Positions 28-46,377 of a stretch of DNA of 47,699 nt are shown piece by piece. How positions within the stretch are numbered: position 1 is the first letter of the stretch; every line of letters starts with the position of its first letter. Source of the DNA: a virus; the IMG/VR virus record IMGVR_UViG_3300017971_000380, positions 1 to 47,699 of that record; one strand, given 5' to 3'. Position numbers and translations under genes: made by a program. Below the pieces are notes generated by a model. That model had not been told where the DNA came from, searched no databases, and worked only from the letters and a program-made list of their open reading frames with translations.

Positions 28-44
28 AGTAAGCGGGGGGAAAT

Positions 45-91
45 GGGAGCCGAGCCAATGACTAAGTCGTTGACCTAGTGACCCGGCTCCC
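45..91 (+). ncRNA. Nested hairpin in leader (structured RNA candidate)
   Basis: GGGAGCCG (45-52) pairs perfectly with CGGCTCCC (84-91). Between them CAATGAC (56-62) and GTCGTTG (66-72) form a second hairpin with a TAA loop. The length is about 47 nt, too short for a tRNA. It lies between a possible -10 box and the terminator-like hairpin at 108-141, so a leader or attenuator role is conceivable. No known RNA family is recognised. Confidence 0.4.
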
Positions 92-107
92 CACGCAGAT
101 TACGATG

Positions 108-144
108 GAGGGGTACGCCAACACCCGCTGGGGTGCCCCTCTTT
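108..144 (+). terminator. Terminator-like hairpin before the 170-355 gene
   Basis: GAGGGGTAC (108-116) pairs with GTGCCCCTC (133-141) with one wobble over 9 bp, followed by TTT. The T run is short, so it may be a weak terminator or an attenuator for readthrough into the next gene. Confidence 0.45.
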
Positions 145-169
145 ACATATCAAGATCGGAGACGGTCCA

Positions 170-813: not shown

Positions 814-1071
814 TTAGCTAAAGAGTCTGAGGATAGCCGCTACAGCCGACACTATCCCCCCGCCTATGAACGAGCCGAGCGCAAATAGCTTCTTGCCCGT
901 GAGAGTTAAGCTGATTGTTGCGTGGGGTCTGTTCTCGATTTTGGAGGCGAGAAAGCCGAACAGCGTTAGAGTCAGATCTCGTTCGCTGGCGTGTAGTGTG
1001 CCTTCCCTGGCGACCCGGCCAGCGGCTTCCTCTATGGCGTCTTCAAGTTGAAAACTTCTCCCGTTGGCCAT
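814..1071 (-). CDS. Small protein with C-terminal membrane helix (85 aa)
   Basis: The ATG overlaps the upstream stop as TAATG. The first 60 residues are charged and helical, starting MANGRSFQLE. The last about 23 residues, from LFALGSFIGG onward, form one hydrophobic glycine-rich segment ending in RLFS, so the protein is probably tail-anchored. Size, topology and position at the end of the late transcript fit a holin-like or other lysis accessory protein, but no family motif is seen and a minor virion membrane protein is equally possible. Confidence 0.65.
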   Translation of the reverse strand: MANGRSFQLEDAIEEAAGRVAREGTLHASERDLTLTLFGFLASKIENRPHATISLTLTGKKLFALGSFIGGGIVSAVAAILRLFS

Positions 1072-3183: not shown

Positions 3184-3639
3184 CTAATAGTCGTGATAAT
3201 ACACCTTTACTTTGCACGTCCTACCCCCGTCTCCCGTAGCTAACTTCGCACGTATGCGAGAATTTGCAGCTACGCGGGGGGACTGGACTGGTAGTGAGAT
3301 AGAGCTTGACCAGACTCCTGAGCGCGAGAATGCTATGTTGCAGAGCCACGTGTCTGAGGCGCCATAGTAGAAGTCAATCTGATAATCGTCGTTCGCATCC
3401 GGCTCCGATACAAAGGCAAAGTGAATATCGAAGATGTCAGTGATGGTCGAAGCTGGAATGATCTCCGTCAAAGCCCCTTGCGTCCAGGCCGCCCCGCCAT
3501 CGGCAAGTGTAACAGGGTCGGCTAAGGCTGGATAGACCTGGGACGGCTTGTGAGCATGATCTTCGAGAATCTCTAAGACGCTCTCGGTATACGCAGAAGA
3601 AAGTTTCTGCTGGCTCTCTATGTGTCCTCTCTGATTCAC
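3184..3639 (-). CDS. Virion-associated beta-sandwich protein (151 aa)
   Basis: GTG start overlaps the upstream stop (GTGA). The first about 45 residues are helical (MNQRGHIESQQKLSS), then come strands such as FDIHFAF and YQIDFYYG, and a C-terminal basic beta segment ending KVKVYYHDY. This resembles a short helical attachment followed by a beta-sandwich tip, as in small tail or head fibres. The family is not recognised. The ribosome binding site (GGAG, about 11 nt upstream) is mediocre, which suggests translational coupling to the DUF3008-like gene. Confidence 0.7.
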   Translation of the reverse strand: MNQRGHIESQQKLSSAYTESVLEILEDHAHKPSQVYPALADPVTLADGGAAWTQGALTEIIPASTITDIFDIHFAFVSEPDANDDYQIDFYYGASDTWLCNIAFSRSGVWSSSISLPVQSPRVAANSRIRAKLATGDGGRTCKVKVYYHDY

Positions 3640-3789: not shown

Positions 3790-5604
3790 TTACACCTCCA
3801 CCAGTACCATACGGGCGGCATGCACAACATCCCCCCGCGCCTCGTCGTACATGTAGTGGAGGGACGGGAATCCCGCTTGTACTGTGCAGTTGTATGTGTT
3901 CCCCAGGTCATCTTCGACGACTATGAAGTACGAGGTAGTATCTCTGAGTCCCTCGAGGAACGTCATCTCTGTGTCGTTTTCCACGACGACTGTTGCGTCT
4001 ATAGTCATCTTCTTTGGTGGCTTGAGTGCGCCCGTAAGCTGGAAGCTGAGCAAGTTCACTTTGTTGCTGCTGTTAGTGGTGTTGCCAGCGAACTTCAGCC
4101 GGACACGCTTGCCGGAGATAGGAGTGGACAGGGACAGTGAGTTGTGACCGTTGGTCTGGCAGATACCAGTGGCGCCGAACAGCGTCCAGCCCCCACCGTC
4201 GATCTCATAGTAACAGGTGACTTTCGTGTTGGCCTCACGCTCCAGATATACTTCCAACGTGTGCCATAGCTTATTCCATTGGGGGAGCCCCGCGTCGAAG
4301 TAAGGGGTGATCATCACCCAGTCTGCCTCGTATGGGCCCCAGTCTGCCTCGTCGACTTCGATGTAGTATATGCTAACCCCGGAAGCCCATATCAACCAGG
4401 GCTTCCCACTGGTCTCTTTGATCACTGACATACCGTTCGTTGCGCCAGAGAAATTACCTACAATTGGAGACCATGAGTATTGACCGCGCGAGACTTCAAC
4501 ACCCTTGTAGATGTAGGTCGTGGTCCCGCTGCGGAGTACCGATACATATACCGCATCCTGATCGAAGGCGATGTTCTTGATGTTGCCTATGGTGTCCAGC
4601 GCGCTGAACGGCCAGAACTCAGAGTCGCGGAATGGTCCACCTTGTCGCAGATCATACTCATTCTCGCCCACAGCTACAAGCTGTTGCAGGCGCCATGTCT
4701 GATCGCTGAACCACGCCTCTGACATAATCTGATCTGCCACAGAGTAGCTATCTGTGCTTGCCCGGTTGGCTAGCCTGTCATCCACGTCGAATACACGATC
4801 GTCCTCACCCAACATATAGAGCGTGCGCTCAGTACCTATGAACATGTAACCGTTCACGGTGAAAATGTTGTTGATCGTGTCCCCATCGTGACCTATCTGA
4901 ATGCCTGCGGTCCAAGTAGGAGTGACAGGGTCAACGGAGCGCTGTATATAATTGTCGCTGTAGGTGGCTACAAGCTGAGAGCCATTGGCGTCAGACACCA
5001 CGTGGAACCAGTCAGCCGTACCAGCAGGTACTGCTTTTTGCGTCATAACTGCGCCGTTCCAGTACCAGTAGTGAGTCGGGTTTCCGGGGTCGTTGGCGCT
5101 CACATACAAACTACCATCGTACACGACCATGTTGTTCGTAGTGCCACCACCAGGGACAGTCCAGTCTAGGTTCCAGGCGGCTCCTGTCCAGTGGTACAAC
5201 TTCGTAATCGTCAGTACGTATATGTCGTCGTTGTACAGGATGAATTGCCTGGGGTTATCGCCCGTACTGGACATAGTTGTGACGTCGGGTCCGTGCAGGA
5301 CCTTGCCGCGCACAGATGTATCTATGGCGTATCCGTCCTGATAGCGAGCACGGGCGGCCTTGTGGGTGAGTTCAGGATCGAACTCCTCCAGGCCGTGTCC
5401 CCACTGCCAGTCTGTCATATCGAACGTCAGCTTCTCGAACGGGTTTAGGCCGAGTGCAGTCTGCGCTCTAGTGGCGACGCGGGGGGAAGGTGGCCTCTCC
5501 TCAATAGTAAGGGCCCTCCTCCCGGCCTCGTCCACTGTCAGCAGGTCGAACGCTTGGCTAGTCGTGTTGTTCGTAAACTTGATGCCGCCGAAGTGGTTAG
5601 CCAT
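3790..5604 (-). CDS. Beta-propeller-like tail protein (604 aa)
   Basis: After an N-terminal arm of about 90 residues, the protein shows repeated propeller-like blades: FILYNDDIYVLTITKLY, NMVVYDGSLYVSAND, NNIFTVNGYMFIG, NIAFDQDAVYVSVL and similar, each strand followed by W/Y-rich turns. The last about 150 residues form a beta-sandwich-like region. Podovirus tail nozzle proteins and other phage tail hubs use propeller folds, so a tail nozzle or hub role is proposed. It lies directly downstream of the two adaptor-like genes, as expected for a tail component. Length and context fit; no specific family is claimed. Confidence 0.75.
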   Translation of the reverse strand: MANHFGGIKFTNNTTSQAFDLLTVDEAGRRALTIEERPPSPRVATRAQTALGLNPFEKLTFDMTDWQWGHGLEEFDPELTHKAARARYQDGYAIDTSVRGKVLHGPDVTTMSSTGDNPRQFILYNDDIYVLTITKLYHWTGAAWNLDWTVPGGGTTNNMVVYDGSLYVSANDPGNPTHYWYWNGAVMTQKAVPAGTADWFHVVSDANGSQLVATYSDNYIQRSVDPVTPTWTAGIQIGHDGDTINNIFTVNGYMFIGTERTLYMLGEDDRVFDVDDRLANRASTDSYSVADQIMSEAWFSDQTWRLQQLVAVGENEYDLRQGGPFRDSEFWPFSALDTIGNIKNIAFDQDAVYVSVLRSGTTTYIYKGVEVSRGQYSWSPIVGNFSGATNGMSVIKETSGKPWLIWASGVSIYYIEVDEADWGPYEADWVMITPYFDAGLPQWNKLWHTLEVYLEREANTKVTCYYEIDGGGWTLFGATGICQTNGHNSLSLSTPISGKRVRLKFAGNTTNSSNKVNLLSFQLTGALKPPKKMTIDATVVVENDTEMTFLEGLRDTTSYFIVVEDDLGNTYNCTVQAGFPSLHYMYDEARGDVVHAARMVLVEV

Positions 5605-5616
5605 TGCTCCCCCCGT

Positions 5617-6477: not shown

Positions 6478-7331
6478 TAGGCTCCTTCCGTGTCCCTGCG
6501 AGAGGGCTGCTTTGTCTGACTCTCATCGGGGATCATGGCGTTCTGGAACTCAGCGTCTACCCAGGCTGCAGGTGGAGTGGGTATGTTCGCAAGACGCTCT
6601 TGAACGCGCACCTTCAAACGATCAGCCAGCACAGTCAAGCGGTCAGCGTCACGTCTTGGTTGACCCAGGGCGCCACCCTCAAGAAGCTCCAAACCTGCTA
6701 GAGCGGAAGCAACATACAACTGTGCAGTGGACATACTGCCTGATGCTACAGCCTTGAGTCCGACAACGCGGAGCTTCCACCCGGTCGGGGGGAGAGGTCC
6801 AGTGACGTGAATCTTCGTGCCGTGCCAGTACCAGTCGGTATATGGAATCGCAGACTCGGTATCTCCGGGCGGCACAAGGTAGGCCTGTAGAGGCATGTTG
6901 TTGTGCCATCCGTATGCCGTGAGATCGTAGTCCATCTGATTGCCCACGATGGTTATGTCCTGTGGGTCAACATCGTGTATGAGGTCTACTCGAGACGAGC
7001 GGACTTGATCTATCGCAGCTTCCTTCTCGGCAGCCGAGAACAGATGGTTGACCTCGTAGGTGACACTTATGGCGATCTGGCCTGTATAGTTGGCGCGCAT
7101 TGTGACAGTGCCAGCCGATTTACTGGCAGCGTAGCGCTCCTCACCATCGTATGTTCCTGATGTGATCAGAATGGTAGTGAAGTATTTCCGCACGAAGCCA
7201 TCATCGTCATAGTTGCCGAGAGCTGTGTCTGTGACGGTGGACCCGTCTCCGGCCCCGGCAGCCGTGGTCGTGCCAGCTAGATAGTCTAGCAGGTCCTTGC
7301 TTACTTGCTGTCGTTCTGCGTCGCTTGCCAT
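6477..7331 (-). CDS. Adaptor-like head-tail protein, paralogue A (284 aa)
   Basis: The start is taken as MASDAERQQVSK at 7331, one base after the upstream stop (TAAGATG); an earlier in-frame start at 7385 would overlap the fibre gene. A helical N-terminus is followed by a beta-rich segment, a helical stretch with DQVRSSRVDLIHDVDPQDIT, and a region shared with the next gene. A C-terminal helical region (residues about 210-260) ends in a charged tail. It is proposed as a head-tail connector from context and size. Confidence 0.75.
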   Translation of the reverse strand: MASDAERQQVSKDLLDYLAGTTTAAGAGDGSTVTDTALGNYDDDGFVRKYFTTILITSGTYDGEERYAASKSAGTVTMRANYTGQIAISVTYEVNHLFSAAEKEAAIDQVRSSRVDLIHDVDPQDITIVGNQMDYDLTAYGWHNNMPLQAYLVPPGDTESAIPYTDWYWHGTKIHVTGPLPPTGWKLRVVGLKAVASGSMSTAQLYVASALAGLELLEGGALGQPRRDADRLTVLADRLKVRVQERLANIPTPPAAWVDAEFQNAMIPDESQTKQPSRRDTEGA

Positions 7332-7332
7332 C

Positions 7333-8646
7333 TTACCAGTTCCCGTTCCACCGCGCTCGTACCTGCACACGCCAGTCAACCGCATTGGGTGTGACTTCGG
7401 CCAAGTCGAGTGTGGTTACGTTAGTTTGGTTCTGTTGTACGAGGCGGCCACTCTCAGAAGTCATAGCCCCCGATGGGAAGTCTACACCTAGCTGGAAGAA
7501 TCCGTCTACTACAGCAGCACCACGTCGATGAATGAAATGAATGCGGAGTATTTGTCCCTCGGCAGCCGCACCAGCGGCATTACCGAATGTCCATTGGTTT
7601 TGCGCGGCCTGACTTATTCCCGTAACCGTGGGAGTTTCATCAACCCGCACCGACTGTAGGTCATAGTTGGCGCCAACATCAGAGTTGATCTGGAGTTCAA
7701 TCTGTGCGGCATTAGCCGCGTCCATTACCTCTACGGTAATATCCAGCTCGTCCCAGGTCCCGGCTGTCCCAGGTATGGTTACAGTTGTGGAGCCTACGTT
7801 GGTGTCCTGCTCGTCAACGACTGTCAACCACTCACCAGTGTTGGGGCGGCTCATTACCAGCGGCGAGACATATATGTGCCTCTGTGCAGCGATCGTACCT
7901 CGTGCGTGAAATATCCTTTGGCAGTTGGTTGCGGCTACGGGTAGGTTCGTGGTGTGCGTCGCTACCAGCACGCCATCGAGGTAGAACAGGCAGACGCCTG
8001 GGAGCCAGATGTACTTGCAGTGTAGCTTTGCGGACATGGCACCAGCCGCGCCTATAGCTGTGCGTGTGCGAGCAGCGCCGGAGCCGTTGACAGCATACAT
8101 CTGGTTGCCGTTCTGCTCAAAGCCCACGTGGACTTGGTTGGTCGTGCCAAAGTAGTCGTTGGTGTTGCAGTAGCCGCCGAAGAAGGTGATCGTTCCCCCC
8201 GCGTTGGCGTCGCGCTTGATGTAGAATTCCATGGAGTGATAGGCCATATCGCCTATGTCGTTGACTGTCTCGTAGGCGTACTTGTCGTCGTTTATGAGGC
8301 GCACGTCGAAGTCTAGGTTGCCGGACTCCCACGTAATCGAGCCCGTACCTGGGGTGTCCTCGAACGTAAACCAGTTGCTACCGGGCCCCGACGTAGCAAA
8401 GTCTGCGGCATCATAACCGTCAACCTTGTCGGCGTCAAAGCCTATACCTGTGGCATCTATGTTGTGGGCGAGTTTGTCTACGGTTATCGCATCATCTGCG
8501 ACCTTGGCTGTGGAGACGGAGCCATCAGCATGATCAATGACCCCGCCTCCATCTTCTTTGTTCGACAGCGTAGAGTGGTCTGTCCCGACCTCTGCTTTGT
8601 TGGTCGGTATGAACCAGCTTCGCCCAGGTGAGTGTGATGTCACCAT
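7333..8646 (-). CDS. Tail fibre with lectin-like domain (437 aa)
   Basis: The N-terminal 95 residues carry the fibre-like pattern DGSVSTAKVADDAITVDKLA followed by ADKVDGYDAADFA, typical of trimeric phage fibres. Residues about 100-265 form an all-beta region (SMEFYIKRD, FLDGVLVATHTT-type strands, CLFYLDG) resembling concanavalin/LamG-type carbohydrate-binding folds. The C-terminal third is another beta domain ending VQVRARWNGNW. Host-surface binding is the likely role. ATG at 8646 follows GAGGTGAACCC. Confidence 0.8.
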   Translation of the reverse strand: MVTSHSPGRSWFIPTNKAEVGTDHSTLSNKEDGGGVIDHADGSVSTAKVADDAITVDKLAHNIDATGIGFDADKVDGYDAADFATSGPGSNWFTFEDTPGTGSITWESGNLDFDVRLINDDKYAYETVNDIGDMAYHSMEFYIKRDANAGGTITFFGGYCNTNDYFGTTNQVHVGFEQNGNQMYAVNGSGAARTRTAIGAAGAMSAKLHCKYIWLPGVCLFYLDGVLVATHTTNLPVAATNCQRIFHARGTIAAQRHIYVSPLVMSRPNTGEWLTVVDEQDTNVGSTTVTIPGTAGTWDELDITVEVMDAANAAQIELQINSDVGANYDLQSVRVDETPTVTGISQAAQNQWTFGNAAGAAAEGQILRIHFIHRRGAAVVDGFFQLGVDFPSGAMTSESGRLVQQNQTNVTTLDLAEVTPNAVDWRVQVRARWNGNW

Positions 8647-9659: not shown

Positions 9660-9723
9660 CGGGGGGAAGGCCTTGCTCCGTGGACTAGCCCTCGGACTAC
9701 CGCACGACTTGGCTCTCCCCCCG
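9660..9723. repeat. Intergenic inverted pair of the octamer (9-bp arms)
   Basis: GCGGGGGGA and TCCCCCCGC face each other with about 47 nt between, inside the 110-bp gap between two virion genes. As RNA or extruded DNA the 9-bp arms could pair fully. There is no T tract to make it a standard terminator. Confidence 0.6.
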
Positions 9724-11893: not shown

Positions 11894-14800
11894 CGTAGCT
11901 TCATAATCCCAGCTTGCCGGGTAGGAATGGAGCCGGGGCTAGCTATGAATAGCTGGTACACACGCTCCATCTCGGGGTCGCTGTGCCGCATGCGGAGCCT
12001 TGTGTTACGGACAACGGCCTCTGCCACGGAAAGTTGAGAGTGCATGCTCAAAATCTGCCGTGCCTGCTGCTCAAGGTACGCCTTCTGATTCGGGTCGACT
12101 TCCTTCTGTGCCTGGTTCTTGATGCGTCTATACATCTTGTAGGCATCCCCGAGCATCGGATCAAGAGCGCTCATCTGCTCATGGACTTGGTCCCTGATAC
12201 CATAGTACATTCGCCTGTAGGGCTCAGCCAGAGTGAGAGCACGCTCCAACGGTGTTTCCGTCTTGCGTAGCTCTGACTCGACGATGCTCCTGATAGGCTC
12301 TGGATAGTTTTCGAGGATTTGGTTGCGTGTGTCGTAGAACGCATTCCAATCGGTATCTCCAGTGTCCGGGTTCTCATAGTCCTCCACCTTGATCGCGTAG
12401 TACATCTCGAGCGCTTCGTCGACAGGAGACAGCATTGGGGATGGCTTGCCGTACCGCTCTGCATACTTCACGCGATCTTCATAGGTTATCGGCACATCCT
12501 TGTACTCAGGTAGAGAATGTATGCGGTCGAACAGGGTTGCCCGTTGGCGCCGAAGCGTGCTGAGTTCGTCAATGGCCATGCTGCCGGATATGATGCCACG
12601 CTCCCACCAGTCAGACAGCTTACTCACCTCTGCCTTGTAACGGTCCCGCTCAGTCTCCATTGCGTTCCAGAACGAGTCCTGCGCCTTGAGAGCCTTCTGC
12701 TCCTCAATCGGCTTGAGCGAGATCGTGCTGTTGTACCAGTGATCGTAGTTCTGTAGGCGATCACGAATAGCCGCGCGCTGTGGGCCAGATGTGGCGATCA
12801 TCTCATATGGAGACATACCCAGCTTGCGAAGTTCTTCCTGCATCTTCTGGTCGATGCCGAGGACTTCCTCGATGACTTCGCTTGAGGCCTGTTTGAACTC
12901 CTCCTTCTCGGTCGGCCTGTAGCGCACTGTGGACGCCTGGTTGTTGACTATCAGTCGCCACGCAGCCTCGCGCTCAGCGTTCCTCAATATAGTCTGCGCT
13001 CCCTCATCCCCCCGCTCTGCAAGTCCACGCACTGTGGCAGCACTCTTACCGTACTTGTCGGCGATCACGAGATCGGTATACATGTTCGTGAAGCGCGAAT
13101 CAAAGGCAAGGCTGTGTAGCGGCTCGGGAATGCTCCCGGTAGCTGCCGTTATGCCGTGCAACGCCAAGCTGATAGGCGGGGGGATCATGGAGGCTGGCTC
13201 ACCCATGGCGGCGCTCTGAACGCCGGATATGAGCGGCGAGAAGTAGAAACCCCCGCGACCCAGCCAATCGGTGAATTGCTCCCAGCCTCCGCGATACCCC
13301 TCATGAAGTTCAGGGAAGTCTCGCACACCTATACGTCTAAGGGAGCCCATGGCAGTCCCCTTGGCGGGATTAAACTCGAAACCAGCCCACGTCGGATTGT
13401 AGCCATAATCCCAGTCCAGCGACAGTTGCACACCATATTTCGCCAGGATAGGGCGTTTTGCAGCAATCCGGGCAATACGAGGCCAGCGACGAGATTCGTA
13501 CATCCAGAACGGCATAAACCGTTGCATTATGAAGTCGCCAACTGTGCGGTTGTCATAGTCGACGAACATCTTGTTGTACTCGTCGGCAGTTATCTTTGAG
13601 GCATTGAGCCGTGCTTCTCTAGCTTTGGACTTGAAGTCGGTCATGCCGTCGAGTTGATTTGCCACGCGGTCGATATATCCGTTCATCGTGCCTATGGCAT
13701 CTTCACCTATGGGCGGGTTGTCCACAACATCTATCATGCCTGTGATAGCCTGGTTGACGCCTTCCATCTGCTCGTCAATGATCGAGTTGTACTGCTTGAG
13801 CGGTTCCGGCATAGTGGCCAGTATGTCTTGATCGGTAAGCTGCACTGTGCTAGTGCGCTCCAAAAGCTCCTCACCCTGTTCTGTGATTTCTGTGCGCCAG
13901 CGACCGTTGCGAAGCTGCTTCACGAACTTGAGATGGCCACCTTCAACAAGCTCCACCAGGGCCCCGGTGGGCATAACGTCTCCTACCTGAGCATCCCGTA
14001 GAGTCTGCAGGTGGCGCGGTGAAAGCTGGTCGATGTTGGAGCGCTGAGCGACCTGCGAGTATAGATGCTCGAACGCTTCGACCTGGGCAGCGTCGTCTTC
14101 TGGCAGTGCGGCCAGGAACTCCTGCACCTTGGGAGAGTCCATAGTTTCAAGCTGAGACACCATTTCATCAACAGTGCGTGGTAGGTTGCCGCTATTGAAA
14201 GTCAACACCTCGTCGGCTGCCCCGGCTATGTGTCGGCGCGTGACGCCAGTGATCTTCTCAAACTCGGAGAGAGCTTCGCCCTTCTCTATTCCACGAGAGA
14301 ACTTGTTACGTTCTGCGGTAGCTTTGCGTAGCTCTGCACGTATTGCGCGCTGCTCGTTGGGGCCGATAGCATTTGCGAGTCTGGCCTCTGCGTCTGAGAC
14401 AGCCACGTTTAGTTCGTCCCACTTACCCTTAGCATACTGGGGAATCAAGTCCTCGAATGCCTGGGCACGCTGATTGGTGAAGTTGTCCAGCTCATCTATA
14501 AGCTGAGACAGCACCATAGGATGCAGCTCGCGCTGTTCGGCGTCTGCTATGTCTGCTTTGATCTGACGTATGGAACGGTCTGCGTCGCGGAGAGCCTTCG
14601 GACGGAGAGGCTCCCGAGCGAACGAGTAGTTGGCAAGTCGCTCCTCGATCTCGTCTATGTGTTTCTTCGAGATCACGAGTTCGTTGTCTATGAAATTCAG
14701 GCGACTCTGTATACGCTCGACAGAGGCATCGCTGGCGATTACCAGCCGATTCTGTAGCTGGTCCCTCATTGCGAGCAGCTTGTCCTGCTTCTGAGAGGCA

Positions 14801-26743: not shown

Positions 26744-26772
26744 GAAGACCCGACATGGGAAAGGAGATCAAA

Positions 26773-27091: not shown

Positions 27092-27094
27092 ATG

Positions 27095-27534: not shown

Positions 27535-27546
27535 AAAGGAGCACGA

Positions 27547-29367: not shown

Positions 29368-29431
29368 ACTTCCTGCCACGGGGGGAGAGGCTATCTCCCC
29401 TCGCACAGGCAGCCTAATGGAAAGGAGAATT
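29368..29431 (+). repeat. Intercistronic stem-loop element 3
   Basis: ACTTCCTG, then GGGGAGA (29382) paired with TCTCCCC (29394) over a GGCTA loop, then AGCCTAATGGAAAGGAG. Contains a CGGGGGGA copy in the stem. Confidence 0.75.
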
Positions 29432-31566: not shown

Positions 31567-32078
31567 GAAAGGATGACATCAATGAAACTGGAAAAGCCCA
31601 CTTTGCATACACCGTGGAGTCGGTCGTGTCTGTTCTGGACCGCGATCTTCTGGATGCTGAACACGATAGATGCGACGCTGACAGCGGCAGTCCTGCAGGC
31701 GGGGGGAACCGAATTGAACCCAGGGGCCTCACTGCTCATGCGGTGGTTTTCGATGAGTGGGTGGGTACTCCTCAAAAGCACGACGCCGATACTGACGGGG
31801 ATGCTCGTGTGGATGGTGTTCCCAAAGGCCATGCGTCTGATGACAGTGATCATGGCGCTGGTAGTCCTGTGGAATCTAGGCATGATTTGCGTCTCGTTCT
31901 GAACGCAGTCAACCCGCCAGTCACAGCGACCTATGAGAGGACCATCCCGTACCAGGGATACATCGTCTTCGACCAAGAGGATGAGGGTCCCTATGGATTC
32001 CAGCTCACCGCCGGGGAGTGCATGCGCCTATCGCGCTGGCTCGTCGACGTGGCTGATCAAATACACAGGAGGGAATGA
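31461..32078 (+). CDS. Hypothetical protein overlapping two other frames (205 aa)
   Basis: The ATG has an ideal AAGGAG 6 nt upstream. Residues 1-60 (MERYTVIVRSGPITRSVSVR) and 150-205 (YQGYIVFDQEDEGPYGFQLT) look like normal protein. Residues about 65-145 are Asp/Gly/His-rich and lie over the membrane protein at 31582-31902 in another frame. Either this is one protein with an overprinted middle, or two short genes flanking the membrane gene whose frame happens to be open. Confidence 0.5.
   Translation: MERYTVIVRSGPITRSVSVRAATGLGAADIALRILRKDDINETGKAHFAYTVESVVSVLDRDLLDAEHDRCDADSGSPAGGGNRIEPRGLTAHAVVFDEWVGTPQKHDADTDGDARVDGVPKGHASDDSDHGAGSPVESRHDLRLVLNAVNPPVTATYERTIPYQGYIVFDQEDEGPYGFQLTAGECMRLSRWLVDVADQIHRRE
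31582..31902 (+). CDS. DUF5658-like membrane protein nested in another frame (106 aa)
   Basis: MKLEKPTLHTPWSRSCLFW begins a protein with about four hydrophobic segments. FWMLNTIDATLTAAVLQAGG followed by TELNPGASLLM matches the LN-x-x-D-A-x-x-T...G-x-E-x-NP signature I associate with DUF5658. AAAGGAT lies upstream of 31582. It lies wholly inside the 31461-32078 frame. Confidence 0.7.
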   Translation: MKLEKPTLHTPWSRSCLFWTAIFWMLNTIDATLTAAVLQAGGTELNPGASLLMRWFSMSGWVLLKSTTPILTGMLVWMVFPKAMRLMTVIMALVVLWNLGMICVSF

Positions 32079-34227: not shown

Positions 34228-34586
34228 ACACTCTCCAGATTCTATTCCAAGACAAGAGACACTTCATACTCGGCGCGCCGGATGGAACCACCCTCACCGT
34301 CACCCACGACACAGCCCGTCGCCTGAACAGCTTTGTGCCTCTCGACCCAGCAAGCCGGGTGCACGTAGTGCCGTGGTATCACGACTACTGGCGTGTGCTC
34401 AAAGGTCCCGATCTCAAGGCCATGTCGGTGAACGACTCTCCCCCCGCCACGGTCACCTATGACACATATGAGGTCAAGATGGAGCTGTTCAGATGTCCGG
34501 GGGGAATGCTGATCAAAGTAGGCTTTTGCCCGTTGGATGGCAAGTGGTACGTATCCACCAAGAAGCCGGAAAGGCCAAACATATGA
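34224..34586 (+). CDS. Hypothetical beta-rich protein (120 aa)
   Basis: MNTLQILFQDKRHFILGAPD; all-beta with Trp/Tyr-rich middle. It contains two CGGGGGGA copies in opposite orientations 59 bp apart (34439, 34498). Overlaps neighbours at both ends. Unknown function. Confidence 0.7.
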   Translation: MNTLQILFQDKRHFILGAPDGTTLTVTHDTARRLNSFVPLDPASRVHVVPWYHDYWRVLKGPDLKAMSVNDSPPATVTYDTYEVKMELFRCPGGMLIKVGFCPLDGKWYVSTKKPERPNI

Positions 34587-37258: not shown

Positions 37259-37592
37259 TACCACAGTACGCCGCCAAGTCGCCATTCCAGAAGTTCGGCA
37301 GGAAGAACTCAAGATCAAGAACATGGTTGTGACCGTGGCCGGGGAGAACACCGTGATCATCAACGTAGGTAGACCGAACACGGTAATCCGAGCCATGGCC
37401 AACACGATCGGCCACCTGATACACCGCCTACTGGCACGGGGGGAACCTCGAGAGGAAATACTCAGCCTAATGCGTGGGGTAGGAGATCACGGCAGGAAGC
37501 CCGATGGCACAGCTCCAGGGCATTCTATTGCAGGGATTGTGGACGCTATGGCTATCGGCCTGCAAGAAGGCTGGGACAGTTTGGAGGAATAG
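37248..37592 (+). CDS. Protein resembling the TSCPD/NrdJ C-terminal domain (114 aa)
   Basis: The segment NTIGHLIHRLLARGEPREEI, then LMRGVG and IVDAMAIGL follows the G-x-L-I-x-x-x-L-R-x-G-x-x-x-E-E-I ... D-A-I-A pattern of the TSCPD domain attached to B12-dependent ribonucleotide reductases. The defining cysteine motif is absent. It may be a regulatory or DNA-related relative. Confidence 0.55.
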   Translation: MANSTTVRRQVAIPEVRQEELKIKNMVVTVAGENTVIINVGRPNTVIRAMANTIGHLIHRLLARGEPREEILSLMRGVGDHGRKPDGTAPGHSIAGIVDAMAIGLQEGWDSLEE

Positions 37593-38726
37593 ATGGACTA
37601 TGGATTAAGACGAAAGGGCTGGTTTCCGGCGGCTCGACGGTTCTACGAGGAGATCGGAGAGGTATCCAACTTCCCCATCGCCTACGTGTACGCAATGTTC
37701 CTTGCGATTTCCGGCCACCTGATAGGTAGAAACTGCTGGTTTTGGTATGGGCGAGACCTGTACCCGAATCACTACATCTGCTTGGTTGGCCCTAGCGGAA
37801 CCAGTCGCAAGAGCACGGCGATGTCGCTGGGAGACCGCGCTGTGAAAAGCGCCCTCGGAGACGAGTGGCTCCCCCCGCTGCGCCAGATCACAACATCTCC
37901 GGGCCTGCTGCTGCACATGCAGAATACAGGCGGTCACACGATGGTGGTGCTGGACGAGATTGCCTCAGTGCTGACCAAGTCCAAGCGGCAAGACTTTGCT
38001 GCCGACTTGATAGCCCGACTGGTAGAGCTGTACGACTGTCCTAACTTCGCAGGGACCCATACACGCAAGGACCCTATCGAAGTGGACGAGCCGTTCCTCA
38101 CATTCGTGTCGGGCAGTACAACCGACTGGCTCAGGCGCTCGCTCACAACAAGCGACCTGATGGCCGGGTTCGGCAACCGAATGTCATTCGTGCTGGGCAC
38201 ACCGCGCAAAGCTCACTCGCTGCCTCGGCGCATGCCGACCACTATCAAGGTAGGCTGGGACCGTCTGCTCAAGTTCAAAGGCGAGATACGCATGAGCGAT
38301 GCTGCGTTCGATGTGTGGGACGACTTCTATACGAAGTTCGAGAAGTTCCTGAACAACCCACACAACACTCCGTTCGTGCGCGTCATGTCCGAGCGCATAC
38401 CTGAGAAGATACTCAAGGCCGCCATAGTTGCGAGTGTGTGGGCTCAGACACGATTGATCGACGACATTATCATGGAAGGTTCCGTAGATTGGGGGAGATA
38501 CTTGCATAATTGCGTGAAGGAAGTCGCGCCATCCTTTGAGGAGACCGAGCGCCAGCTCATGGCGTTCCTCCACTCCAAAGGCGGTGAGGCTACAAAGCAG
38601 GATATAGACACAGAGTTTGGGCATCGCATTGCGTCTCGCAAGCTACGTGATGCGATCGACCAGCTACAGTGGCTGGGCCTAATTCACAAGCCGGATGGAA
38701 ACATCATATCGGTAAAAGAGGATTGA
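37593..38726 (+). CDS. DUF3987-type replicative ATPase/helicase (377 aa)
   Basis: Walker A is GPSGTSRKST (66-75), in the form G-x-S-G-x-x-R-K-S-T typical of DUF3987 proteins; Walker B is MVVLDEIAS (117-125). A C-terminal winged-helix-like region (KQDIDTEFGHRIASRKLRDA) may bind DNA. It is a likely replication helicase or loader. No primase domain is fused and none is recognised elsewhere in the window. Confidence 0.8.
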   Translation: MDYGLRRKGWFPAARRFYEEIGEVSNFPIAYVYAMFLAISGHLIGRNCWFWYGRDLYPNHYICLVGPSGTSRKSTAMSLGDRAVKSALGDEWLPPLRQITTSPGLLLHMQNTGGHTMVVLDEIASVLTKSKRQDFAADLIARLVELYDCPNFAGTHTRKDPIEVDEPFLTFVSGSTTDWLRRSLTTSDLMAGFGNRMSFVLGTPRKAHSLPRRMPTTIKVGWDRLLKFKGEIRMSDAAFDVWDDFYTKFEKFLNNPHNTPFVRVMSERIPEKILKAAIVASVWAQTRLIDDIIMEGSVDWGRYLHNCVKEVAPSFEETERQLMAFLHSKGGEATKQDIDTEFGHRIASRKLRDAIDQLQWLGLIHKPDGNIISVKED

Positions 38727-40229: not shown

Positions 40230-40691
40230 GTGAAGAAATTCTATGCAGGTGGCGCCTGGGCAGACAGGGCTCGCGTCAACGCAATCATCAAGGAACTCAG
40301 CGCGGAAGGGTACGAATGCGTGCTCGACTGGACTGAGGACTCCCCGGACAGCGACAAGATCGTCGCTACCAACTTCAAGCGAATGGCCAACCGGGACATC
40401 GAGGCTATCGTTACAGCCGCACAGTTCGGCGTCTTCATACATGACGACAGCACACGCATTTATCGAGGCTCCTACTGCGAGCTAGGTGCTTGCCTTGCCA
40501 GAGGCATCCATTGCTTTGTGCTGATCGACCGAGACGGAGCCAACATGCGGAACGTGTTCCACCACCACGACCTCTGCCACGTTCTACACGCCGACCCCAA
40601 CGTGTCGTTTGTGCACTTCATCCTGGCGCGCATCTCCCTAATCGAAGTCGAGGAATCGTGGCGCACAATCCCGGTGCCTGAACCGCAATGA
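40230..40691 (+). CDS. Nucleoside deoxyribosyltransferase-like protein (153 aa)
   Basis: The start KKFYAGGAWADRARVNAIIK (VYLAG-like strand) and the motif RGSYCELGACLARG (G-x-x-x-E-x-G-x-A-x-A-x-G) match the nucleoside 2-deoxyribosyltransferase-like fold. GTG at 40230 has GGAGG 5 nt upstream; the longer TTG frame from 40122 lacks a site. It may act in nucleotide salvage or base exchange. Confidence 0.72.
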   Translation: MKKFYAGGAWADRARVNAIIKELSAEGYECVLDWTEDSPDSDKIVATNFKRMANRDIEAIVTAAQFGVFIHDDSTRIYRGSYCELGACLARGIHCFVLIDRDGANMRNVFHHHDLCHVLHADPNVSFVHFILARISLIEVEESWRTIPVPEPQ

Positions 40692-41419
40692 AGTGCTACG
40701 AGAACCCACGAGTTGCCGATTGGGCCGTCAAACAGATCATTGAGAAGATGGCCAAAGGCGGGAACAGAACAGGGAAGCCACACGCAAGCGAAATCTATCA
40801 GTGCTTCCGGCGCACGTACCGTCACCGCAGTGGTGACCAGCGCACATATGGGCGCAAGGCAGTGCTGAGATTCGCAGCAGGTTTCGCAATGCAGGAGTGG
40901 TTCCTCGGGCCAGAAGCAGACGGCCAAGAGGCGTTCGGTGTGATCTTCTCCCCTGACCGAGTAGAGGGCAACCATGTCCTCGAGTTCAAGACTACTCGCT
41001 ACTCATATCAGAAGAAGCGTCTCACCGACAGGGACAATGAGCCTCCCCCCGCTAGTCACCTGGGGGTAAACGTCGTCGATGTTGATTGGGAACCCGGCAA
41101 GTTCTCGCCTACGCGACTTGATTCGTGGGTTCTCAGGACAGGACTGTACTGTGCAGCCATAGGCACCAACCTGGCGCATGTGCTTGTGTTCTTCCTCTAT
41201 GCCGATGATGTGAGGGCGTGGACCTTCGAGTACAGTAACGAAGATCTCGAGTGGCTCATGTACGATGCAACTAGGCGGGGGGAAGTTCTACAGGAGCACC
41301 TAGATTATGGAGTGCAGCCCGGTGTGGCAACAAGGCTAGGTGATTGGGAGTGCGGCTTCTGTCCGTACCTACAGGATTGCCTGCCTGAACTCAAGAAGGA
41401 TGGTTACAAGGAGGACTGA
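40688..41419 (+). CDS. Cas4/RecB-like PD-(D/E)XK nuclease (243 aa)
   Basis: Catalytic D90 (IFSPDRVEG) and E99-F-K101 (VLEFKTTR) form the nuclease core. C39 together with C-x2-C-x5-C near the C-terminus (ECGFCPYLQDC) gives a probable iron-sulfur cluster as in Cas4-type exonucleases. Expected in DNA end processing and recombination. ATG overlaps the previous stop; one CGGGGGGA copy in each orientation lies inside. Confidence 0.83.
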   Translation: MKCYENPRVADWAVKQIIEKMAKGGNRTGKPHASEIYQCFRRTYRHRSGDQRTYGRKAVLRFAAGFAMQEWFLGPEADGQEAFGVIFSPDRVEGNHVLEFKTTRYSYQKKRLTDRDNEPPPASHLGVNVVDVDWEPGKFSPTRLDSWVLRTGLYCAAIGTNLAHVLVFFLYADDVRAWTFEYSNEDLEWLMYDATRRGEVLQEHLDYGVQPGVATRLGDWECGFCPYLQDCLPELKKDGYKED

Positions 41420-41661
41420 TGGAAGTTCTGATTAAGTGTCCAAGCTGTAACGAGTACATTATAGGCGCTGTTTGTGTGAAGTGCGGTAAGCTGTGTGGTA
41501 GGCATATAGGCGCTACGTTCGTGCACTCGGGCGGCGCCCACGTGAAGTTGTTCCTCTGTACTGAGTGTAATGCCCAGGTGCAAATTGAGCAGTACAGGGA
41601 GCGAGAGACTTGGCCAAAGGAAGTTAAAGATAAGGAGATCACATATGCCAACACCTACTAA
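41419..41661 (+). CDS. Small zinc-ribbon protein (80 aa)
   Basis: MEVLIKCPSCNEYIIGAVCV: C-x2-C, C-x2-C (CVKC) and C-x2-C (CTEC) suggest one or two zinc sites. TGATG overlap with the nuclease gene. Unknown function; perhaps a partner of the flanking recombination genes. Confidence 0.7.
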   Translation: MEVLIKCPSCNEYIIGAVCVKCGKLCGRHIGATFVHSGGAHVKLFLCTECNAQVQIEQYRERETWPKEVKDKEITYANTY

Positions 41662-42553
41662 AACAGAGGAAAGCCCGTTCACTAGCTTGGACGAGGCACT
41701 CAACAGAGAAGTGATACTGATGGGTGGGGGACCCGGCGATGGCAAAACCTACAGCGTCGCCAAGATCATCGAGGAGTGTGAGGAGACCGGGCATCAGGTC
41801 GTAGTGATCGACCGAGACCGGGGGCTGGCCAAAGTCGTATATGACGTTATGGGCCGAACTCCCGACTGCCTACACTACGCGATCTGTGACAAGTGGGAGA
41901 AGGTGAACCAGGCCGTTGACTTTGCGTTCAAGAACCTGGGCCCCGGCGACTGGCTGGTGTTCGAGATGATCGGTGCGATGTGGGACTTCGCTCAAACAGA
42001 GTACAGCCGCAAGGTGTACGGAGATCTCACCGAGCACATGCTGAACCTTCGTGCGGAAGCACAGCAGGTCATACGCAATGCGGGGCTGGACCCGAAGTCC
42101 AAAGACGCCCGGAAGAAAGTGGCTGAGAAGGTCGGATTCGGTGGGCTTGATGGCCGCCAAGACTGGTCGTTTATTAAGCGCATGCATAATGACGACGTGT
42201 TTATTAAAGCCATCGTAGAGGGTGACTTTAATATCCTCTCCACCACGAGCATGACTCCCGTGGCCAAAGATGAGGCCGAGAAGTACCCGCTGTGGGTGAC
42301 GCTTGGTCGCAGGCCTACCGGGGAAAAGGAACAGCCTCACCGCCATGACACCCTTGTGGTGGTCGAGAAGAAAGGCAACAAGTACGTCTGGCGCACCGAC
42401 TTGGGCGCGCGTGAGGGTAAAGATCGCGGAGGCCGTAAGCTGGTACGCGACGTGGACTTCACGGACATAGGTTTCTGGCGGTCCTATCGGGACTACCATA
42501 ATCTTGAGAGTGTACCCTCAAAACAGGAGGACTCGGATGATGACGAGTATTAA
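41645..42553 (+). CDS. RecA-like P-loop ATPase, Sak4/AAA_24-type (302 aa)
   Basis: Walker A is GGGPGDGKT (27-35), then VVVIDRDRG at the next strand, and a Walker B-like strand WLVFEMIG (103-110). This layout is that of phage Sak4-like and AAA_24 recombinases, which pair single strands with an SSB. Acidic C-terminus (EDSDDDEY). Start at 41645 follows AAGGAG by 7 nt. Confidence 0.78.
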   Translation: MPTPTKTEESPFTSLDEALNREVILMGGGPGDGKTYSVAKIIEECEETGHQVVVIDRDRGLAKVVYDVMGRTPDCLHYAICDKWEKVNQAVDFAFKNLGPGDWLVFEMIGAMWDFAQTEYSRKVYGDLTEHMLNLRAEAQQVIRNAGLDPKSKDARKKVAEKVGFGGLDGRQDWSFIKRMHNDDVFIKAIVEGDFNILSTTSMTPVAKDEAEKYPLWVTLGRRPTGEKEQPHRHDTLVVVEKKGNKYVWRTDLGAREGKDRGGRKLVRDVDFTDIGFWRSYRDYHNLESVPSKQEDSDDDEY

Positions 42554-42920: not shown

Positions 42921-43486
42921 CAAGCGGTCACCTACAAGACGAGATCAAACGATGCATCCAATTCATAACCGCATACGGTCTTGGCAGACTATTCTTCTTG
43001 CAGGAAGGTTTGTGGGCCGGAGCCGACTTCAAGACTGGTGGGCTGGGCTACTTCGAGCGTGCGGGAAACGAGTGGTTCCGGCGCAAGAGGGACTTCCGAG
43101 GTACGATCAAGAGTCACTTTGGTGTCCAGGCAAGCTGCTCATCTGTGGGAGTTCATGTTCTACAGACTGGCTCCCCCGTAGAGTCTGGCATGATGATTGG
43201 CCTGCTCTACGATCGCACAATGGATGGCTGGCCAACGAAGTTGACTCAAGGTCTGCCGAAGCCGTTGTTGAGATGGTCTACCGACGACGAACAGAACGAG
43301 AAGATCACCCGGCTTATGGCCTTGTGGCCCCGAGTGCCTGAGCGTGTCCTGCTCCGCATCCTCCACGATAACGGGGGGAGCCTACGGAAGACGCTGATGA
43401 AGATGATGCAGGACCCCGACAGCTTTGCGGAGTACAAGGGTATAGGCGCGAAACTTATCAAGAATTTGAAAGAGGTGCTACAATGA
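42713..43486 (+). CDS. ERCC4-type nuclease with altered active site (257 aa)
   Basis: DVRE (17-20), LQVGDYAW (40-47) and VTRKAADFFESL (58-69) fit the XPF/ERCC4 nuclease pattern, G-D-x(n)-E-R-K-x3-D, except that the catalytic Glu is Thr59. The C-terminus (EYKGIGAKLIKNLKEV) resembles a helix-hairpin-helix DNA-binding motif. It may be inactive or use another residue; a structure-selective DNA binder is possible. GGAGG lies 10 nt upstream of 42713. Confidence 0.78.
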   Translation: MVQSKTARDQSNPIKVDVRERLEVEDWLKREGYPTSVETLQVGDYAWYSPDRSEVILVTRKAADFFESLTSGHLQDEIKRCIQFITAYGLGRLFFLQEGLWAGADFKTGGLGYFERAGNEWFRRKRDFRGTIKSHFGVQASCSSVGVHVLQTGSPVESGMMIGLLYDRTMDGWPTKLTQGLPKPLLRWSTDDEQNEKITRLMALWPRVPERVLLRILHDNGGSLRKTLMKMMQDPDSFAEYKGIGAKLIKNLKEVLQ

Positions 43487-43884
43487 AACCCGCAACGCTA
43501 TCGGACAATCAACAGGATTCGGTCGAGGAAGTGCTGCGTAAGAACTTCCCCCACGGCCACAGTGAATTCATACCCCTGATGATGCGCTTGCTCGACCTGC
43601 ACAGTCGCAAGAACAAAGACTACGCAGGCGGCGGCAATCCTCTCGGGAACTTCCATAGAGTGGCCAACCTGCTGTCTCAGTATCCCAACCTCGACCCGAG
43701 TGACCCGCGTGTGGTTGCCCTCACCTACGCCTTCAAGCAGATCGACGCGGTGATGTGGCTGCTGTGTACGAACCGGGATGGAGAGGTAGAGGGAATATCC
43801 GACCGTCTACAGGACATAGCTGTGTACTGCATGCTGGCTATGATTCTGGACGGGGAGAGGAAAAGCGATGAACTTGGGGCGTGA
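43483..43884 (+). CDS. DUF1599-like nucleotide-modification-associated protein (133 aa)
   Basis: LHSRKNKDYAGGGNPLGNFH, then a helix pair ending LQDIAVYCMLAMIL, follows the K-N-x-D-Y-x ... D-x-A-x-Y pattern of the nucleotide modification associated domain (DUF1599). Its enzymatic role is unknown. ATGA overlap with the ERCC4-like gene. Confidence 0.72.
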   Translation: MKPATLSDNQQDSVEEVLRKNFPHGHSEFIPLMMRLLDLHSRKNKDYAGGGNPLGNFHRVANLLSQYPNLDPSDPRVVALTYAFKQIDAVMWLLCTNRDGEVEGISDRLQDIAVYCMLAMILDGERKSDELGA

Positions 43885-44089
43885 GTTCCCACACGATCAG
43901 AGGTACATAGGTAAGCCCTGCATCCATTGCGGGTCCAAGAACACCTACGCGGAGATATACCCGCACTCGATCGAGGGGAGCTGCCTGTCCTGCCACAAGC
44001 CAAACCCGGTGCCGGACAGTATCGTGTTGAAGTGGGGAGTCGGAAAGGAAGTAAAGCAATGCCAGCCTACACAGAAGAACAGATTGTAG
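43868..44089 (+). CDS. Small zinc-ribbon protein (73 aa)
   Basis: MNLGREFPHDQRYIGKPCIH with C-x2-C (CIHC) and C-x2-C (CLSC) 21 residues apart. GAGAGG upstream; overlaps the previous gene by 17 and the polymerase start by 31 bases. Unknown; may partner the polymerase. Confidence 0.65.
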   Translation: MNLGREFPHDQRYIGKPCIHCGSKNTYAEIYPHSIEGSCLSCHKPNPVPDSIVLKWGVGKEVKQCQPTQKNRL

Positions 44090-46377
44090 AGAAAACGAAG
44101 GACCTAGACTCCTTCGCACATACGCTCCGCACCTGCCGCCGCTGCACAATGCGACGGCGTTGCCGCTTCCCCGTACCCGGCTCAGGCTTGGCTCCGTCCG
44201 ACGTCATGGTGGTAGGGCAGGCTCCCGGCTGGCAAGAGGATAAGGAAGGCATCCCATTCATAGAGCAGGCCGGGGAGTTCCTCTCCACCTGTCTCAACCG
44301 CGCGGGGCTGGACTGGACCAAGGTGTACTTCACAAACGCCTGCAAATGCTACCCAGGACGGAGACGTGGTGGTGACAACGCGCCCGACAAAGACAGCCTG
44401 GAGGCCTGTGAGGTGTGGCTCCGGCGCGAGATAGAGCTGGTGCAGCCAAAGGTCTTGGTAGCCATAGGCGCAATATCCATGAAGCACCTGGGCGTCAAGG
44501 GCGGTGGCATCAACATCAACAACGGCAAGGTGTGTGAGAGCAGCATATACGACCTTCCAGTCATACCGCTCCTTCACCCTGCTGGACTGATGCGTCCGGG
44601 TAACTCACGTGAGACGCCCAAGTTCGTGACAGGCATCAACGCCATCAACACCTTCCTGTCCGGCGGCATCACTCCCCCCGCCTATGCAGAAACTGCTAGG
44701 GGGCTGACGTTTGATGATACGTTCGGGCTGGACATTGAGACTGAGGGATGGGAAGAAGGCCGCCACGATATATGGTGCACGGGTGTGGCTAACGGTGAAG
44801 TTCGTACTGCACAGCGCGAGCATAAGGATTGGCAGACTACAATCTCTCCCGACGCTACTCCTGTGTGCCACAACGCTGTGTTCGACCTTGACCACCTCGG
44901 TCGAGCGGGAATTGAGTTCGATGACTTCCACGACACCATCCTAGAAGCACACATGCTGGGCCACAAACCGCTTGGCTTGAAGGCTCTCACGCCTGTATTT
45001 ACAGGCAACCAACTGCGTGATTTCAAGGACGTCTCGACACGCGGGGGGAGGAACAAGAAGCTGACCTACGAAGATGTGAAGGACGAGATGTTGGACTACT
45101 GTAGTCTGGATGCGTGGGCGACGTGGCAGCTTCACCAGATGTTCTACCCTGAGTTGGAGAAGCATCCGAAGTGGCTGGAGTTCTACGAGAAAGAGAAGAA
45201 GATCAGCCGCGCGATAATACAGATGCAGCGTACCGGGCTCCCCATTAGTCAGAGTAGGCTGGATACTATGCGCGATAGTGTGATCGAACGCGCCGGAGAG
45301 CTGGAGGAACAGCTCCATAGTATGGGCGTGACTCACCCAGGCGACAACGATTACATCGGGCGCAAGTTCTGGCACGGTAAATCGAAAATCGAGCACACCA
45401 AGACAGGTAGGTTCTCAACGCGCGAGGCGCACCTGATGGAAAACCGAGGGCCCGATGATGATTGGGTGGAGCTTCTTATAGAGTGGCGCAAGCTGATGAA
45501 GTTCCTCTCCACCTACATCGAAGCATACCGGGGACAGGACTTCGTGCATCCGTCGTTCAATCAGACAGGCACACAGACTTGGCGCTGGTCCTGCTCGAAC
45601 CCCAACTTCCAGAACGTGCCCAAGTCTACGGCTGTTGGTATCTACCAGTTGTTCGTCGCGCCGGAAGGATACATGTTCGTCAGCTTCGACTACTCCCAGG
45701 TGGAGTTGCGCGCGCTGGCGATAGCGTGTCAGGACCCGGTGATGCTCGAGGTGTACCGCTCAGGCGGTGACATACACGATGAAACCATGAGGGCATGCGG
45801 CTTTGATTTGGCTCACCCTGAGAACCTAGACCTTGCTCGACGTCTGGCTAAGATCATCAACTTCGGCATCATATACGGTATGACTCCCTACGGTGCCGCT
45901 CCGAAGTTGGGCGTTGACGAAGCAGCCGCCGCAGAGTTCATAGGTAACCTGTACAACAGGTTCAAGAACATCGAGCCATGGCAGCAGAAACAGATCGAGC
46001 ACGCTCTCGAACACGGCTACGTTGAGAGTCCTAGCGGTCGTCCGCTATGGGTGCCCAACATGTCTGTGAGTGAAGGCACGCTCTACCACAGAGGCACGAA
46101 GCAGTGCCAGAACTTCCCCATACAGTGTGAGGGGATAGAGGTCGTGAAGACAGGTATGCTCCAGGCGAAGGATGCCCTTCCCTACTTGGTGTGCCAGGTC
46201 CACGACGAACTTCTGTATCTTGTGCCAGAGGCACAGGCGCAGGAGATATACGACTACCTTGCGAAGGCGCTGATCGTGAAGGATGATATAGACTACACGG
46301 TTGAGGGAGCGATCGGCAAAACGTGGGGTGACATAAAACACATACCAGATGATCTATTTGACGAGGAGGAAGAATGA
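44059..46377 (+). CDS. Uracil-DNA glycosylase / 3'-5' exonuclease / DNA polymerase A fusion (772 aa)
   Basis: Residues about 20-200 are a family 4/5-type UDG: cysteines 26, 29, 95, 97, 117 for an iron-sulfur cluster, GQAPG (53-57) and HPA (173-175). Residues 215-360 are a DnaQ-like exonuclease with D225, E227, D277, Y347 and D351. The rest is PolA: motif A D544 in FDYSQVELR, motif B RRLAKIINFGIIYG (594-607), motif C QVHDE. A similar UDG-PolA arrangement is known in phage SPO1. Start at 44059 follows AAAGGAAG. It is the replicative polymerase. Confidence 0.93.
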   Translation: MPAYTEEQIVEKTKDLDSFAHTLRTCRRCTMRRRCRFPVPGSGLAPSDVMVVGQAPGWQEDKEGIPFIEQAGEFLSTCLNRAGLDWTKVYFTNACKCYPGRRRGGDNAPDKDSLEACEVWLRREIELVQPKVLVAIGAISMKHLGVKGGGININNGKVCESSIYDLPVIPLLHPAGLMRPGNSRETPKFVTGINAINTFLSGGITPPAYAETARGLTFDDTFGLDIETEGWEEGRHDIWCTGVANGEVRTAQREHKDWQTTISPDATPVCHNAVFDLDHLGRAGIEFDDFHDTILEAHMLGHKPLGLKALTPVFTGNQLRDFKDVSTRGGRNKKLTYEDVKDEMLDYCSLDAWATWQLHQMFYPELEKHPKWLEFYEKEKKISRAIIQMQRTGLPISQSRLDTMRDSVIERAGELEEQLHSMGVTHPGDNDYIGRKFWHGKSKIEHTKTGRFSTREAHLMENRGPDDDWVELLIEWRKLMKFLSTYIEAYRGQDFVHPSFNQTGTQTWRWSCSNPNFQNVPKSTAVGIYQLFVAPEGYMFVSFDYSQVELRALAIACQDPVMLEVYRSGGDIHDETMRACGFDLAHPENLDLARRLAKIINFGIIYGMTPYGAAPKLGVDEAAAAEFIGNLYNRFKNIEPWQQKQIEHALEHGYVESPSGRPLWVPNMSVSEGTLYHRGTKQCQNFPIQCEGIEVVKTGMLQAKDALPYLVCQVHDELLYLVPEAQAQEIYDYLAKALIVKDDIDYTVEGAIGKTWGDIKHIPDDLFDEEEE

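Follow-up and report, generated by a model that had tools for sequence, protein, structure and literature searches.

KOPS, GGGNAGGG, is the polar sequence that orients FtsK in E. coli, and the stoperators of actinobacteriophages are longer, variant-tolerant repressor sites that are oriented with transcription. Lambdoid phages that carry a recombinase but no RecBCD inhibitor over-represent the Chi octamer (Bobay et al., PMC3784561), and the nick motifs of the LUZ24-like phages tf (TACTRTGMC) and Rembedalsseter (WACTRTGAC) are present at 13–14 copies per genome, on one strand and concentrated in one part of it (PMC3517423, PMC11780129). Here, we describe the octamer CGGGGGGA in the virus record IMGVR_UViG_3300017971_000380, the whole 47,699-base stretch of which is referred to as the window and, judged from its sequence, is a tailed-phage genome. 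Almost certainly, CGGGGGGA acts as a signal at the DNA level, and most likely as a strand-specific, Chi-like recombination or DNA-protection signal.

Results

CGGGGGGA ranks first by frequency among the octamers of the window, where it is present in 34 exact copies, 19 on the + strand and 15 on the − strand, at a density of one per 1.4 kb (Table 1); the guanine plus cytosine (GC) content of the window is 56%. An earlier note on this DNA, made by a model from the letters alone, had listed the same 34 copies and claimed strong enrichment; all coordinates were confirmed, and Markov models support the claim. Over both strands, the expected count is 1.0, 1.8 and 3.5 at orders 2, 3 and 4 with the sites left unmasked, and 0.78–0.94 when the background is computed from sequence with the sites masked. 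The enrichment is about forty times the chance number, with an observed to expected ratio (O/E) of ~33 at order 2 and a Poisson P of ~1e-41 to 1e-43. An order-6 model returns an expectation of 30.7, which is no test of enrichment because such a model holds the motif's own heptamers and is fitted on the motif itself; with that figure discounted, the Markov expectation does not approach 34.

The C-Gn-A series furnishes an internal control: for n from 2 to 8, the window holds 343, 91, 27, 4, 34, 0 and 0 copies, placing the C-G6-A/C-G5-A ratio at 8.5. The 24 one-mismatch variants of CGGGGGGA are seen 34 times against 27–31 expected, and this lack of a clear excess implies that recognition, if any, requires all eight letters. 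The octamer is thus strict, in addition to being G-rich and non-palindromic, without dyad symmetry. A G at position −1 (24/34) and a purine at +8 (27/34) recur in otherwise unrelated flanks, and no second conserved block was detected within 40 bp of the sites beyond these two positions. A literature search with the letters of CGGGGGGA returned no work on such a phage motif among the best title and abstract matches. A second octamer, GCGCCGGA, has 15 copies against 2.5 expected at order 4 (at 6161, 30511 and 45290, for example); it is found mainly in the right arm and is weaker and less regular than CGGGGGGA.

Same-strand gaps between CGGGGGGA sites were measured on a closed circle and compared with random placements. 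On the + strand, gaps range from 1306 to 4015 bp with a coefficient of variation (CV) of 0.29, a regularity equalled by 0 of 50,000 random placements; on the − strand, they range from 1465 to 7281 bp (CV 0.44, P 0.0008). The regular per-strand spacing described in the earlier note is therefore beyond chance. Same-strand spacing is 2.5–3.2 kb and stays in step over the window ends (+ gap 2691, − gap 3881), with irregularities limited to the long − strand gap from 22796 to 30077 and the fewer − strand sites in the right arm (9 + and 10 − in the left arm; 10 + and 5 − in the right).

Nearest neighbours form 15 pairs, each with its two copies in opposite orientation, 19–1408 bp apart and without preferred spacing or helical phasing. 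The inverted pairs to which the earlier note had drawn attention thus exist, but they are mostly a by-product of two regular strands, because same-strand sites are never closer than 1.3 kb. A modest residue is left when gap lengths are kept and their order is shuffled: + and − sites lie closer together than expected at P 0.003–0.04 depending on the measure, with a median distance of 474 bp against 799 expected (P 0.018). The sole pair within 50 bp in the window is 19108/19127, and intrinsic-terminator hairpins built from adjacent inverted copies (GGGGGGACC...GGTCCCCCC) were rejected on this count.

The spacing was reproduced by a toy birth–death model with low gain, in which loss of a site was allowed only if the same-strand gap stayed below ~3.5–4 kb. 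The model yields 15–19 sites with a CV of 0.22–0.34 and a minimum gap of ~0.4–1.7 kb, values which bracket the + strand. The model dispenses with a ruler: it would suffice that a reader moving along one strand has to meet a site within a few kb.

Relative to gene models compiled by hand, the sites divide into 15 sense, 12 antisense and 7 intergenic copies, and the genic ones cover all six phase/orientation classes. Occurrence in all phases, in both orientations and between genes demonstrates that selection acts on the DNA, and together with the toy model this upholds the view that a DNA-level site is maintained on both strands every 2–3 kb. Readings based on coding constraint, G-quadruplexes or slippage were rejected, as each site has a single G run and the sites use both strands and all phases. 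In the intergenic segments 25143–25188 and 29379–29417, the site is followed by a similar leader (GGCAGCCTAA...AAAGGA) directly before the next gene.

Table 1. Positions of CGGGGGGA in the window, followed by selected phage genes (aa, amino acids; ORF, open reading frame; UDG, uracil-DNA-glycosylase)
Feature	Position	Strand	Context or basis
CGGGGGGA	34..41	+	intergenic
CGGGGGGA	855..862	-	sense in 814-1071(-)
CGGGGGGA	3275..3282	+	antisense in 3184-3639(-)
CGGGGGGA	3830..3837	-	sense in 3790-5604(-)
CGGGGGGA	5480..5487	+	antisense in 3790-5604(-)
CGGGGGGA	5608..5615	-	intergenic
CGGGGGGA	6786..6793	+	antisense in 6477-7385(-)
CGGGGGGA	8194..8201	-	sense in 7333-8646(-)
CGGGGGGA	9660..9667	+	intergenic
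CGGGGGGA	9716..9723	-	intergenic
CGGGGGGA	13007..13014	-	in 1834-aa structural ORF
CGGGGGGA	13177..13184	+	in 1834-aa structural ORF
CGGGGGGA	15129..15136	+	in 1834-aa structural ORF
CGGGGGGA	15665..15672	-	in 1834-aa structural ORF
CGGGGGGA	17188..17195	+	in 1834-aa structural ORF
CGGGGGGA	17662..17669	-	in 17397-18764(-)
CGGGGGGA	19108..19115	+	in portal-like gene
CGGGGGGA	19127..19134	-	in portal-like gene
CGGGGGGA	22796..22803	-	in putative small-terminase gene
CGGGGGGA	23123..23130	+	outside gene models used; within uncertain short ORF
CGGGGGGA	25143..25150	+	intergenic
CGGGGGGA	27448..27455	+	in 27337-27534(+)
CGGGGGGA	29379..29386	+	intergenic
CGGGGGGA	30077..30084	-	antisense in 30049-30441(+)
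CGGGGGGA	31700..31707	+	in 31573-31902(+)
CGGGGGGA	34439..34446	-	antisense in 34224-34586(+)
CGGGGGGA	34498..34505	+	in 34224-34586(+)
CGGGGGGA	37437..37444	+	in 37248-37592(+)
CGGGGGGA	37870..37877	-	antisense in helicase gene 37593-38726
CGGGGGGA	41044..41051	-	antisense in Cas4-like nuclease gene
CGGGGGGA	41276..41283	+	in Cas4-like nuclease gene
CGGGGGGA	43372..43379	+	in ERCC4-domain gene
CGGGGGGA	44673..44680	-	antisense in UDG-PolA gene
CGGGGGGA	45042..45049	+	in UDG-PolA gene
Large terminase	21010-22653	-	
Portal-like protein	19016-20752	-	weak match
Major head protein	10159-11091	-	
Cas4-like (RecB-family) nuclease gene	40688..41419	+	phrog_1706, E 5e-6; ExK motif and C-terminal cysteines read in sequence
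Sak4-like ATPase/annealing protein gene	41570..42553	+	phrog_124, E 5.5e-5; Pfam AAA families near or below cut-off

Searches for relatives yielded no close one, either in the phage collection (megablast with the first 25 kb of the window) or in viral contigs queried via the polymerase, capsid or portal protein. A terminase search of the viral contigs returned 11 loci at ~31% identity, without CGGGGGGA. The earlier note had called for the motif to be sought in related phages; among more than 200 distant loci recovered by capsid, terminase and UDG-PolA alignments, no comparable enrichment was encountered. Three loci (L041, L543 and L553) have 4–7 copies each at an O/E of 2–6, without the regularity of the window, and no other octamer in the fetched viral loci of at least 12 kb combines strictness, use of both strands and evenness. 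The distant capsid relative L020 holds 14 copies of ATGGACAA/TTGTCCAT against 0.5 expected, close inverted pairs included; these are probably repressor operators. When the phage collection was scanned for adjacent inverted copies of CGGGGGGA, the motif-dense matches inspected, among those listed, were terminator-like hairpins of GC-rich phages. In three such phages (L200, L184 and L214), CGGGGGGA lies within GGGGGGACCTC...GAGGTCCCCCC hairpins, a recurrent terminator-like element unrelated to the window sites.

Capsid relatives in bacterial genomes belong mainly to Chloroflexota, Actinomycetota, Bacillota and Deltaproteobacteria. We counted CGGGGGGA, with its reversed form as a control, in 1,196 whole genomes drawn evenly, not exhaustively, from the phyla to which five selected bacteria belong (Tepidiforma, Gordonia, Desulfotruncus and two metagenome-assembled genomes, one proteobacterial and one deltaproteobacterial); Bacteroidota, Cyanobacteriota, Planctomycetota and Archaea are among the many phyla outside the survey as such. 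The densest genome (G1204, 66% GC) has one copy per 2.8 kb at an O/E of 0.9–1.5. In fragments of ~20 genomes, the Markov O/E was mostly near 1, with a few small samples at 2–5, and because it is close to 1 in most, the excess over the reversed control in many genomes is largely composition. The C-Gn-A series declines steadily in the sampled bacterial genomes (3036, 1304, 428, 74, 26, 2 and 0 for n from 2 to 8 in G1035). The genome that reached an O/E of ~4.5 in one 20-kb sample (G1136) has a whole-genome C-G6-A/C-G5-A ratio of 0.31, and the highest ratio among 29 candidates is 0.50 (G629). No host was found, and none of the bacteria sampled showed CGGGGGGA as a signal across its genome. In four genomes (G954, G370, G574 and G216), the CGGGGGGA copies listed first on contig C1 share a single strand for hundreds of kb to 2.6 Mb, and there appears to be strong polarity of G-rich octamers along these chromosomes.

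The right arm of the phage encodes a DUF3987/helicase, a Cas4-like nuclease, a Sak4-like ATPase, an ERCC4-domain protein, a UDG-PolA fusion and an RNase H. The helicase gene (37593–38726) matches PHROG families named DNA primase and helicase, over the helicase part of those families; it also matches Pfam DUF3987. Neither a primase domain nor a nicking enzyme could be recognised in the window proteins; the remark in the earlier note that no known primase gene is seen needs qualifying for the family names. The Cas4-like nuclease is, by sequence, a candidate member of a phage recombination system, and it and the Sak4-like gene may be linked to CGGGGGGA. Among the ORFs scanned, no Gam- or Abc2-like match indicative of a RecBCD inhibitor was present, and many small ORFs match nothing.

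The UDG-PolA gene (43927–46377) joins an N-terminal UDG domain (Pfam UDG, 1.9e-26) to a family A DNA polymerase (DNA_pol_A, 1.8e-70), and the polymerase of Manatee Spring phage MW202455 aligns over both parts. In the ERCC4-domain protein (42680–43486), the core VTRKAAD takes the place of the usual catalytic ERKxxxD; it may be an inactive nuclease retained for DNA binding. The RNase H gene (47249–47699) runs off the end of the window, and continuing into positions 1–26 adds eight codons and then a stop. This read-through points to either a closed circular contig or a permuted genome, and, together with the site regularity across the ends, it fits a circular map. Direct repeats of ~11 bp (TCTTGACCAAA type), in blocks at 24160–24199 and 26666–26716, flank the region between the divergent gene arms; they resemble iterons or operators, and a replication origin is possibly located here.

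Discussion

We favour the reading in which CGGGGGGA is a strand-specific, Chi-type recombination signal, of a host enzyme or the phage's own, and assign it a probability of roughly 0.45. Four lines of evidence favour it: i) CGGGGGGA is a strict, G-rich, non-palindromic octamer without an excess of variants, like E. coli Chi, ii) both strands are used at similar numbers, independent of gene direction, iii) same-strand gaps match a model that limits the longest gap alone, and iv) a Sak4-like gene is present and no inhibitor could be recognised among the scanned ORFs, recombinase without inhibitor being the class of lambdoid phages that over-represents Chi (PMC3784561). As a yardstick, phage P1, for which the Chi of the host is known, carries 50 Chi sites over both strands of its 94.8 kb, one per 1.9 kb, with 27 against 2.5 expected in one half and 23 against 2.0 in the other (order 2); a real phage can therefore have Chi at high density on both strands.

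In the mechanism that we infer, a helicase-nuclease that processes DNA ends would travel along the phage DNA and read the octamer in one orientation only; on reading CGGGGGGA, it would halt degradation and load a recombinase. Each strand would then have to present a site within a few kb of any end or break. Selection would act against long gaps on a strand, and surplus copies close to one another would be lost by drift, which would generate even spacing on each strand independently. The reader could be a host enzyme of the RecBCD/AddAB type, or an enzyme set that uses the phage Cas4-like nuclease and Sak4. Only tentatively do we entertain CGGGGGGA as the signal of the phage's own recombination or replication machine, read per strand at set maximum intervals; that this would be a viral Chi-like or priming-like system, with sites selected for even cover of both strands, is likewise possible rather than probable.

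Several observations weigh against a Chi-type signal. The distant relatives that were found are without the motif, and the window is a single genome for which no close relative was found. None of the 1,196 surveyed genomes attains the CGGGGGGA density of the window, and the C-G6-A/C-G5-A ratio is 0.07–0.50 in the 29 most promising genomes against 8.5 in the window. Chi spacing in P1 is uneven (CV 0.64–1.27), so that even spacing is not general to phage Chi, and the extra cross-strand pairing (P 0.003–0.04) is not predicted by a Chi model. Of the suggestion in the earlier note that these are Chi-like sites of the host, the type of site fits, and no host carrying CGGGGGGA emerged among the genomes surveyed.

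Sites of a priming type fit the data well, as do those of a Chi type. Single-strand events on both strands, initiated at a lagging-strand priming site or a programmed nick site every 1.3–4 kb per strand, are the strongest alternative, albeit a doubtful one. The regular same-strand spacing of 2.5–3.2 kb agrees with such events, and the phage encodes its own PolA, DUF3987 helicase and RNase H; known primase recognition sites, however, are ~3 nt long, and neither a primase domain nor a nicking enzyme was recognised. A precedent for nicking comes from tf and Rembedalsseter, in which localized nicks fall at a 9-nt motif that is strict or nearly so and whose enrichment is detectable from sequence alone (PMC3517423, PMC11780129), but those motifs are clustered and on one strand only, whereas CGGGGGGA is distributed 19 + to 15 −. 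Nicking at CGGGGGGA, if true, would be a new form of the tf-like phenomenon.

It is unlikely that CGGGGGGA has some other role, such as self-marking for a defence or counter-defence nuclease, or orientation of a polar DNA translocase. Strict non-palindromic octamers are also typical of translocase-orienting sites such as KOPS, but these are polar within an arm, whereas the left arm here has 9 + and 10 − sites and the right arm 10 + and 5 −. Polar translocase-type sites thus fit badly, as do repressor-type sites: stoperator-like operators were rejected, with no excess of variants and with sites divided 15 sense, 12 antisense and 7 intergenic.

A role as binding sites for a DNA-organising, -packaging or -partitioning protein of the phage or host, with the opposite pairs as anchors every 2–3 kb, is less likely again and decidedly improbable, because variants and symmetry are absent. 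The even cover of the whole genome and the residual + to − co-localisation (median 474 bp against 799, P 0.018) would suit such a protein. Families of binding sites usually show many graded variants, however, and here near-misses are not in excess (34 against 27–31), pair distances of 19–1408 bp have no preferred spacing or helical phasing, and only the G at −1 and the purine at +8 accompany an octamer devoid of dyad symmetry.

Chance, base composition, coding constraint, transposition and assembly artefact have a negligible claim: G runs are generally error-prone and the order-6 expectation, fitted on the motif itself, is 30.7, but the masked expectation of 0.8–0.9, the 34 copies of C-G6-A against 4 of C-G5-A and 0 of C-G7-A, the six phase/orientation classes, flanks unrelated beyond one base on each side and the even spacing exclude artefact and coding explanations.

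Should CGGGGGGA prove Chi-like, the sequence is much easier to recognise in a phage genome than in that of a host, and recombination signals in uncultured bacteria could be sought by way of strict, evenly spaced phage octamers. A nicking or priming role would instead provide an example in which both strands are covered evenly, with relevance to the function, long unexplained, of motif-linked nicks in phage DNA.

Among described systems, the stoperators share with CGGGGGGA their many dispersed, asymmetric copies in a phage genome. KOPS is likewise a strict, asymmetric, G-rich octamer, whereas CGGGGGGA is without polarity in either genome half. The nick motifs of LUZ24-like phages, known also from phiKMV-like phages and T5, are short, asymmetric, far above chance and distributed throughout coding DNA in phages of ~46 kb; unlike them, CGGGGGGA is on both strands, even and associated with no known nick. 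From Chi, CGGGGGGA differs in its sequence, which resembles none of the five Chi motifs given for Proteobacteria (PMC8022716), in its even spacing, in its O/E of ~33 (order 2) compared with ~11 in P1 and a median of 2–5 in lambdoid phages, and in that no host carrying the octamer was found. What it shares with Chi in lambdoid phages and P1 is the form of a strict, G-rich, asymmetric octamer, placement on both strands within and between genes, a density like that in P1, and strong over-representation, as seen for Chi in phages without a RecBCD inhibitor (PMC3784561).

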